Below, in pieces: positions 56,037 through 58,705 of a DNA stretch of 64,000 bases. The stretch is from positions 1-64,000 of the forward strand of contig CALWJV010000005.1 in the NCBI GenBank assembly GCA_944381115.1. Reading direction: 5' to 3'. Position 1 is the first letter of the stretch. Every line of letters begins with the position of its first letter. Source of the stretch: an uncultured Clostridia bacterium. GTDB lineage: Bacteria; Bacillota; Clostridia; Oscillospirales; CAG-272. The notes beneath the pieces were generated by a model. The model ran no database searches. It was not told the DNA's origin and saw nothing but the letters and a program-made list of their open reading frames with translations. Position numbers and translations under genes: made by a program.

Positions 56037-57218
56037 TCAGTCACCGTACATTTTCATTATTACAGCGTCTGCCATTTCAAAAGCCCTGTCTTCAAGTTCG
56101 GAAAGATCTGCCCTTGATTCCTGCTCCAAAACTTTTGAAAGTTCGGGACGTGTTTTAGGGTGCCTCGGTGTGAAGATTGTACAACAGTCTTCATATGGTA
56201 AAACAGAAGTTTCAAACGTATTTATCTTTCTTGCAGTTTCGATTATCTCTTCTTTATCAAGTCCTATACACGGGCGGAAAACAAGCATTCCAGCCGCCGG
56301 GTCCGTAACTCCCATCGCAAGCATTGTCTGAGAAGCGACCTGACCAAGACTTTCTCCCGTTACAAGCGCGTCACAGTAGCGAGACCTTGCTATCCTTGCC
56401 GAAATACGCATCATACATCTGCGGAGCAAAAGCGTAAAATATTCTTCATCAACTGTATTTCTCAGCCTCTCCTGAATCTCGGTCACAGAAACACAATTTA
56501 CTCTTATAGGTCCGCAGTAATCGCTCATAATTCTTGCAAGTTCAAGGACTTTTTCTTTTGCAGCTTCAGATGTATAAGGAAAACTTTCAAAATGTACAGC
56601 TTCTATTTTCGCGCCGCGTTTTGCCATCATGTATCCGGCAACCGGGCTGTCTATTCCCCCGGAAAGCAGGAGCATTGCCCTGCCGGCAGATCCTACCGGC
56701 ATTCCTCCTGCTGCTTTTGATGCGTCAGCGTGGACAAAGGCATACTTTTCACGAACTTCAACAGTTACGGTAACATCTGGGTTTTCAAGGCTGACTTTAA
56801 TATTCGGAATGCATTCAAGTACAGCCCTTCCTGCCGCTGCCGCTATCTCCGGAGATGTCAGCGGAAAACGTTTATCTGCTCTTTTTGCGGTCGCCTTAAA
56901 CGTTTTTTTCGATTCCAAAAAACGCGGAATGTATTCCTTTAATGTACTTATTATGTTATCCATATCTTTTTCTGTACGGGCTGCTCTGCAAACGGTCGCA
57001 ATACCAAAAATCTTACAAAGTTCTGAAAAGACCGCCTCACTGTTGATACCGTCATCATTTGGCACAACGTATATAGTGGACTGTGCTCTGGTAACGGTAA
57101 AACTTCCGTATCTTGAAATGCGACCTTTTATTTCCTTTGACAGAGTGCTTTCAAAGTGGCTTTTGTTAAGCCCCTTCAACGCTATTTCTCCGTATTTACA
57201 CAAAAATATTTCCTTCAT
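56037..57218 (-). CDS. thiI: tRNA 4-thiouridine synthetase ThiI
   Basis: ThiI makes s4U8 in tRNA and can donate sulfur for thiamine thiazole synthesis. The 393-residue protein has the NFLD/THUMP region (KYGEIALKGLNKSHFE near 8, FPLTSPEIAAAAGRAV near 120) and the PP-loop adenylation motif LLLSGGIDSPVAGYMMAKRG near 182. No rhodanese domain, the short form usual in Firmicutes, which needs a partner cysteine desulfurase; none is adjacent. Start set at ATG 57218 (MKEIFLCKYGE), matching the family N-terminus; an in-frame GTG at 57236 sits within an AAAGG site and remains possible. Confidence 0.95.
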   Translation of the reverse strand: MKEIFLCKYGEIALKGLNKSHFESTLSKEIKGRISRYGSFTVTRAQSTIYVVPNDDGINSEAVFSELCKIFGIATVCRAARTEKDMDNIISTLKEYIPRFLESKKTFKATAKRADKRFPLTSPEIAAAAGRAVLECIPNIKVSLENPDVTVTVEVREKYAFVHADASKAAGGMPVGSAGRAMLLLSGGIDSPVAGYMMAKRGAKIEAVHFESFPYTSEAAKEKVLELARIMSDYCGPIRVNCVSVTEIQERLRNTVDEEYFTLLLRRCMMRISARIARSRYCDALVTGESLGQVASQTMLAMGVTDPAAGMLVFRPCIGLDKEEIIETARKINTFETSVLPYEDCCTIFTPRHPKTRPELSKVLEQESRADLSELEDRAFEMADAVIMKMYGD

Positions 57219-57262
57219 TTCAATCAAAAACCGCACCTTTCGAAGCCAAAATCTCTTCTATA

Positions 57263-57291
57263 ATTATATCGCATAACCTTTTCCTTGTCAA
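57263..57291 (-). promoter_or_regulatory. Consensus promoter of the thiI-hprK operon
   Basis: Minus strand: TTGACA (57286-57291) and TATAAT (57263-57268) with a 17-base spacer, about 40 bases before the thiI start. Confidence 0.8.
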
Positions 57292-57413: not shown

Positions 57414-57442
57414 TTGCAATTTATTAAAAATAATGCTATAAT
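57414..57442 (+). promoter_or_regulatory. Promoter of the lipobox/acidic protein gene
   Basis: TTGCAA (57414-57419) and TATAAT (57437-57442) with a 17-base spacer and a TG extended -10. Transcription would start near 57449, which rules out the in-frame ATG at 57452 as a leadered start. Confidence 0.75.
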
Positions 57443-57496
57443 GTTAGCAGCATGTATTATTTTTTTATTTATTTAAGAAAGGCTTGGTACAAACTT

Positions 57497-58663
57497 ATGA
57501 ACAAAGTAAAACGTTTGTTTTCCGCCGCATTTGCGCTGATGTCGCTGTTTGCTGTGACCCTTCTCGGCGCTTGTGCAAAAAATACCACAATTTCCGTAAT
57601 ACTGAAAAGCAATGATACCAATGTCGGGGCTATAATAACCATAATTATTGCTGTTTTAGTTGTATTGGCATTTGTAGCACTTATTTTGCTTAAATTTAAA
57701 AAGAAAAAATCCTCTGAAGAAGAGGCTGAAGAAAGCGAAATTATGACGCAGGATCCCAATGCCGTTTCCGAATACATATCTGACGAAGAAAGAGAAGCCA
57801 TGCGGAAGGCCGCAGAAGAAGAAAAAGCAGCACAAGAAGAAACGCCGGCCGAAAAAGCCCAAGACGAAGGAGAAAAATCTCCTGAAGAGACTCCTGCCGA
57901 AGAAAAGGTAGCGGAAGAGCCTGAAAAAGAAGTTGTTGAAGAAGTCGCTGAAATAACCTCAGAAGATAAAGCAGATATTACCAAAGCAGAAAGAGAAGCC
58001 GAATCCCTCGGGTATACACTTGACGAAAACGGATTCCCAATTGTGCCTGAAGGAATGGTCGTTCGCTATAAATGGAGTTTCCTCGGTCGTCTTATACAGT
58101 CCGATGACGAACTTAAGTACCGTTATATGCTTTTGCGCCGTAAACTTCTTTCTTACAAGAAGGTCCGTTCAAATGTAAGTTGGAACTTTGACAGTTACTT
58201 CATCGGAAGAAATCCCATAGTAAAACTTAAAGTAAGAGGAAAGACCCTTGTTGCTTATTTCCCGTTTGACCCCAAAGAGATGGAAGGATCCAAATATATA
58301 GGTGAAGACGTCTCCGATATTTCAAGATATAAAGCAGTTCCATTTGCTTACCGTATCAATGGTATGAGAAAATTAAAATATGCTATGGAACTTATAGAAA
58401 GACAGCTTGTCGGAGTAAAATCAAAAGAACCGGAAGCCGTTGATGAATCCCGTATCGGAGAAATTATTCCGTATGAAAGTTTCAGAAAACTTTTCTTAAA
58501 AGGATATATCAGAATCGGCGGTGTTATTGAAGTCGGGGCAAGAGCATCTTCTCAGGACGACGATGACGACGATATAGAAGTAGATGAAAACGAAAACGAT
58601 GCAGAAGTCGCTCCTTCTGAACTCAAAGAAGAGTTCAACTTTAATCCCAAGCCTCAGTCGTAA
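57497..58663 (+). CDS. Lipobox-bearing membrane protein with acidic linker and a conserved C-terminal domain of unknown function
   Basis: A 388-residue protein. Residues 1-25 form a signal peptide ending in a lipobox-like LLGAC (C26). A second hydrophobic helix spans about 43-66 and is followed by KFKKKK. Residues about 72-168 are a Glu/Ala/Lys/Pro-rich, strongly acidic, probably coiled or disordered segment. Residues about 180-320 form a compact domain with YKWSFLGRLIQSDDELKYRY, LLSYKKVRSNVSWNFDSYFIGR, VKLKVRGKTLVAYFPFDP and FAYRINGMRKLKYAMELI. From memory this domain recurs in other clostridial proteins without known function. A short Asp run and tail end the protein. Start: ATG 57497 with AAAGG upstream. 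The lipid anchor and the second helix make topology uncertain. Confidence 0.82.
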   Translation: MNKVKRLFSAAFALMSLFAVTLLGACAKNTTISVILKSNDTNVGAIITIIIAVLVVLAFVALILLKFKKKKSSEEEAEESEIMTQDPNAVSEYISDEEREAMRKAAEEEKAAQEETPAEKAQDEGEKSPEETPAEEKVAEEPEKEVVEEVAEITSEDKADITKAEREAESLGYTLDENGFPIVPEGMVVRYKWSFLGRLIQSDDELKYRYMLLRRKLLSYKKVRSNVSWNFDSYFIGRNPIVKLKVRGKTLVAYFPFDPKEMEGSKYIGEDVSDISRYKAVPFAYRINGMRKLKYAMELIERQLVGVKSKEPEAVDESRIGEIIPYESFRKLFLKGYIRIGGVIEVGARASSQDDDDDDIEVDENENDAEVAPSELKEEFNFNPKPQS

Positions 58664-58665
58664 TA

Positions 58666-58705
58666 AAAAACTAACCCGAGACAAAGGAATTTTGCCTCGG
58701 GTTTC
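58666..58705 (+). terminator. Terminator after the lipobox/acidic protein gene
   Basis: AACCCGAG (58673-58680) pairs with CTCGGGTT (58696-58703), with an A-tract before; the T-run is short. Confidence 0.6.

Follow-up and report, generated by a model that had tools for sequence, protein, structure and literature searches.

What is the protein encoded at 57497-58663 of the 64-kb stretch of DNA analysed here (the window), and on which side of the membrane would it act? The open reading frame on the plus strand spans 57452-58663, and the natural start is the ATG at 57497, directly preceded by AAGAAAGG; with a stop codon at 58661-58663, the gene specifies a product of 388 amino acids. Each of the 7 genomes of the genus carries an orthologue (48-59% identity in the part that aligns), which shows that the gene is genuine and has been kept. 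An earlier note, made from the DNA letters, had thus correctly recognised a single gene with the anatomy given below.

The flanking signals were less clear-cut than that note implied. A promoter-like site (TTGCAA-17-TATAAT with an extended -10 TG; 10/12 matches) occupies 57414-57442 on the plus strand, with its -35 element at 57414, and sits 54 bp upstream of the start codon. The elements of the "clean promoter" are therefore there, yet such sites are no more frequent around the gene than in shuffled sequence (4 observed versus 4.3 expected), and only the position supports this one. Likewise, a 13-bp hairpin follows the stop codon (58673-58703, assigned to neither strand), but its T-run is on the minus-strand side and the plus-strand sequence after it is only TTTCTG-like, so that "clean terminator" was a generous wording. 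This arrangement looks as if the hairpin could also terminate transcription arriving from the right. On the minus strand, a perfect TTGACA-17-TATAAT promoter at 57263-57291 faces the divergent thiI-like gene (56037-57236).

All features of the protein are encoded on the plus strand. Residues 1-27 (57497-57577) form a signal-peptide-like N-terminus made up of MNKVKR, a hydrophobic helix and LGAC-A, at the place where orthologues carry signal peptides of the signal peptidase I type. A second hydrophobic segment, residues 44-71 (57626-57709), consists of a transmembrane helix (44-65) followed by K66-F-KKKK71, and is predicted from the positive-inside rule in relatives to run with its N-terminal end out and its C-terminal end in. 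It leads into an acidic, probably disordered linker of about 106 residues (72-177; 57710-58027), with a net charge of about -29 over 110 residues. The linker is followed by a basic domain at residues 178-356 (58028-58564), with a core at 187-306 and C-terminal helices plus a strand at 317-345. An acidic tail (357-388; 58565-58660) ends in EEFNFNPKPQS, at the point where relatives such as the same-genus protein L030 run on into a domain resembling ribosomal protein uL15. The order of helix, acidic linker and basic domain is that of the tethered uL15-like proteins of gut Clostridia.

To place the domain relative to the membrane, we counted lysine and arginine residues on either side of the last helix before it in the 107 collected relatives that have such a helix, with helices taken from a simple hydropathy prediction. 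The 15 residues after the helix held more K+R than the 15 before it in 97 relatives, fewer in 5 and the same number in 5 (means of 3.4 and 0.7, respectively). In addition, relatives carry the same domain fused to cytosolic modules, namely DUF2357, GGDEF-EAL and a NucS-like nuclease. Given this bias and these fusions, the domain at 178-356 is most likely cytoplasmic and membrane-tethered, and the predicted topology, with the domain side inside, can be held with high confidence; the earlier note's view that the second helix returns the domain to the cell interior is borne out. The N-terminal signal peptide would allow the reversed arrangement, with the domain outside the cell, but the 97:5 bias and the cytosolic fusion partners make that extremely improbable.

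The same note had proposed that, if C26 is lipidated outside the cell, the second helix brings the domain back into the cytoplasm as an effector. The motif L23-G24-A25-C26 (57563-57574) is indeed a legal lipobox inside a plausible signal peptide. It overlaps, however, an AxA motif: A25-C26-A27|K28 would also suit signal peptidase I, and the N-terminus fits both readings. No lipobox was found in any of the four orthologues with a complete N-terminus (L026-L029), whose first helix terminates with a conventional signal peptidase I-like site. Nothing points to an effector role either, and the lipid-tethered effector is thus an improbable reading of this protein. The outward-to-inward course of the second helix is the same either way, whether the N-terminus is lipidated or cleaved by signal peptidase I.

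The domain itself, which the earlier note could not name, gave no believable match when searched alone against Pfam, NCBIfam and PDB sequences; the many weak matches obtained with the full-length protein arise from the acidic linker and helix and were set aside. The protein does not match the Pfam DUF5655 model (PF18899) and stays below its gathering threshold, and among 92 relatives two match that model weakly (best E 0.0015). A profile of 17 relatives (A1) recovered further members, among them, weakly, two proteins (L059 and L060) whose matched parts are DUF5655 domains above the Pfam cut-off. In profile-profile comparison, A1 aligned with a set of 13 DUF5655 domains (A2) at an hhalign probability of 96.1% (E 2.9e-9, 115 columns), and an alignment of 92 domains (A5) did so at 97.6% (E 1.8e-11), compared with at most 0.27% for 30 column-shuffled copies of A2 and 0.05% for the reversed alignment. 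Homology to DUF5655 thus extends along the whole domain, and its assignment as a divergent, basic branch related to DUF5655 is well supported. The domain also matches PDC-S18, a PADLOC candidate, in its C-terminal, DUF5655-containing part only (E 6e-4); relatives reach E 1e-13, and L059 and L060 match PDC-S18 over nearly their whole length. The literature collection searched held no paper on DUF5655, PDC-S18 or PDC-M26, and the family, though large, seems to be unstudied.

An AlphaFold2 model of the domain built with the A5 alignment had a pLDDT of 91.1 and a pTM of 0.84. The Foldseek search that the earlier note had suggested placed E. coli YjbR first (E 0.0096), and VIA-align superposed the model on YjbR with a Z of 8.6 (99 residues, rmsd 3.1), followed by YdhG/DUF1801 (8.4 and 8.3), NB7804A (8.0), DUF419 (7.8), the C-terminal DNA-binding domain of T4 MotA (6.3) and frataxin (6.0); other folds scored below 5. 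In a viral structure library, the first match was a "DUF5655 domain-containing protein". A double-wing alpha/beta fold of the YjbR/MotA type can therefore be predicted with considerable assurance. Z values near 8 speak for fold only and not for function: frataxin and YdhG share the YjbR-type fold yet are not DNA-binding proteins. The earlier note had regarded a confident match to a characterised family as grounds for abandoning its reading; a family link has emerged, but neither DUF5655 nor YjbR has, to our knowledge, a proven function, so that clause is only half triggered. For YjbR, DNA binding through the double wing has been proposed on structural grounds (PMC7641849).

The charge of the domain is a consistent feature of the group. 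Net positive charge was found in 172 of the 174 domain copies (mean +9.1 in 130 residues; +13 in the core of the window protein), and in about 19 alignment columns K/R accounts for at least 75% of residues. Conserved K/R positions include R214, R238, K243, R247, K249 and K294. At three positions where most relatives have a basic residue the window protein does not (W193, N226 and N288), which counts against nucleic-acid binding. The linkers preceding the domain show the reverse, with a net negative charge in 125/133 relatives (mean -23 per 100 aa). Most of the 13 DUF5655 domains used for comparison carry a slight negative charge (median -3); as far as so small a set can tell, basicity seems to mark this branch. 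Such a basic surface suits nucleic-acid binding but would suit other acidic partners too. Taking fold, charge and companion domains together, we infer that the protein is a membrane-tethered nucleic-acid-binding module, a reading to which we assign a probability of about 0.5.

To see how the family is distributed, we scanned 84,980 species, which yielded 157 relatives; the 80 that were kept belong to Clostridia-type MAGs, many from animal guts. Carriers made up 29/196 sampled genomes of the window's own GTDB family and 7/291 in the class sample, and of 147 genomes sampled from the order the window's own was the only one, a patchy distribution. Phages and plasmids, also searched, yielded no relatives. 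The usual layout starts with a helix, to which a large ectodomain is added in some cases, and continues through an acidic linker into one to three copies of the domain; a uL15-like domain often comes next. The latter follows the basic domain in 67/143 collected proteins (a few loci being counted twice), and its best matches are PDB uL15 chains, both by sequence (E 1e-11) and by fold. Proteins of 964-1767 aa (L033:4359-9035, L034:6587-10735, L035:8311-11205 and L036:3351-8654), encoded by four genomes of the genus, have all of these parts: a predicted large ectodomain with several membrane helices, the acidic linker, the basic domain and, at the C-terminus, a uL15-like domain. The window's own genome contains no copy of this type; in it, the domain occurs once and PF00828 is represented by one gene, presumably that for ribosomal L15.

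The window protein has no uL15-like domain, and no relic of one was found downstream of its stop codon. Within the genus, the uL15-like domain is also missing from five other relatives, which form one clade with the window protein (92/87) beside L030, a protein that has it; the rooting of this tree is uncertain. Because the tail of the window protein sits where L030 continues, loss of the uL15-like part by truncation is the simplest reading of these sequences, which would make the window protein a shortened member of the gut-Clostridia family. The genome-context survey suggested in the earlier note found neighbourhoods that are conserved only within subfamilies, and no operon partner shared by genes of the window type.

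Other relatives attach the domain to different machinery. Two SipW-like signal peptidases (L122:6533-8650 and L126:6436-7674; NCBIfam NF046067, E about 1e-11, below cut-off) carry one to three domain copies on their cytoplasmic C-terminus, and SipW-like signal peptidases are encoded next door to domain proteins at four further loci (L097, L120, L165 and L171). A GGDEF-EAL membrane protein (L123:4378-6744) has the domain at its C-terminus. In three proteins (L124:6115-7329, L125:5433-6665 and L127:459-1685), an N-terminal domain of about 270 residues is fused to a divergent copy; that of L124 and L125 has no match in Pfam or NCBIfam.

These companions bear on function in opposite ways. The uL15-like domain, the NucS-like nuclease and DUF2357 are nucleic-acid-related and count for nucleic-acid binding, whereas the signal peptidase and surface-ectodomain fusions point to envelope functions instead, and the lack of a uL15-like part in the window protein also speaks against the nucleic-acid reading. 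The leading rival, by virtue of the fused or adjoining SipW-like signal peptidases, is a docking role in the cytosol, in which the domain would serve membrane and secretion proteins by binding to lipid head groups, acidic linkers or partner proteins, with nucleic acid uninvolved. That the membrane proteins carrying the domain are so varied, and that an acidic linker accompanies it in 125/133 cases, is consistent with such a scaffold. The soluble, helix-free fusions to the NucS-like nuclease and DUF2357, together with the uL15-like companion, are easier to reconcile with nucleic acid, and we consider the scaffold possible but doubtful.

A separate observation concerns six loci (L113:2684-6839, L104:2366-6906, L116:2574-6702, L037:4171-9504, L118:6391-10426 and L054:9009-13334). 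In five of them a DUF2357-type protein carries a DUF5655-like domain; in the sixth, L054, the partner protein has no Pfam DUF2357 match. DUF2357 is the N-terminal domain of McrC (PMC11090510). The neighbour is a membrane-anchored, McrB-like AAA_5 protein (PDC-M26A, E about 1e-34), and we dropped the notion of DUF2357 fusions lacking an McrB partner when the neighbouring membrane protein was seen to carry the AAA_5 domain. SipW-like signal peptidases also adjoin; the five loci with DUF2357 thus hold a membrane-bound McrBC-like pair within an operon of secretion type. The presence of a DUF5655-like domain both on such pairs and on signal peptidases makes DUF5655 worth bench work.

Could the window gene then belong to an anti-phage system, in which the domain would sense or position foreign nucleic acid at the membrane? 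The candidate defence nuclease PDC-S18 has DUF5655 at its C-terminal end, and relatives are fused to DUF2357 beside membrane-bound AAA_5 proteins that match PDC-M26A. The window gene, however, stands alone beside genes that read as housekeeping (thiI-like, hprK-like and trpB-like), its genus-wide presence is unlike that of a typical mobile defence gene, phages and plasmids gave no relatives, and the protein has no nuclease. It gave no match to DUF2357 (PF09823). A defence role is possible for the relatives but unlikely for this solitary gene.

Returning to the tethered nucleic-acid-binding module, the mechanism that we propose would run as follows. The N-terminus would be exported or form a two-helix hairpin, and the helix at 44-65 would cross the membrane from the outside inwards. 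The long, disordered acidic linker would hold the compact basic domain in the cytoplasm and may act as a spacer that keeps it off the membrane surface. Close by the membrane, the domain's most likely task would be the binding of DNA or RNA, possibly in association with ribosomes. More tentatively, the whole gut-Clostridia family may rely on an acidic tether, together with the basic double-wing domain and often a uL15-derived domain, to keep RNA, ribosomes or DNA close to the inner membrane face, an extension that we regard as conceivable rather than probable; the window protein would then be its minimal form.

Whatever the ligand, an anonymous gene has now been placed in a family that can be recognised, and both the fold and the topology of its product can be predicted. 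If the basic and uL15-like domains do bind nucleic acid or ribosomes, these bacteria would tether that machinery to a wide variety of membrane proteins, something of which we found no description, and the family would provide an undescribed physical link from the envelope, with its surface proteins and signal peptidases, to the translation or nucleoid machinery.

Compared with known systems, the window gene is a minimal member of what appears to be an undescribed architectural variant of DUF5655/YjbR-like proteins. Its likeness to DUF5655 (PF18899) is one of profile-profile homology over the whole domain, from which it differs in being strongly basic where DUF5655 is slightly acidic, in its added C-terminal helices and in its membrane tether with an acidic linker. 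With YjbR/MmcQ (PF04237), YdhG/DUF1801 and the C-terminal domain of T4 MotA it shares a predicted fold only, at 5-14% identity and with no Pfam membership of its own. PDC-S18, whose C-terminal DUF5655 domain is matched weakly (E 6e-4), has an N-terminal PD-(D/E)XK nuclease that the window protein does not. Finally, the uL15/L18e family (PF00828) is represented in close relatives by their uL15-like C-terminal domain, whereas the window protein carries the tether and the basic domain and ends where that domain would begin.
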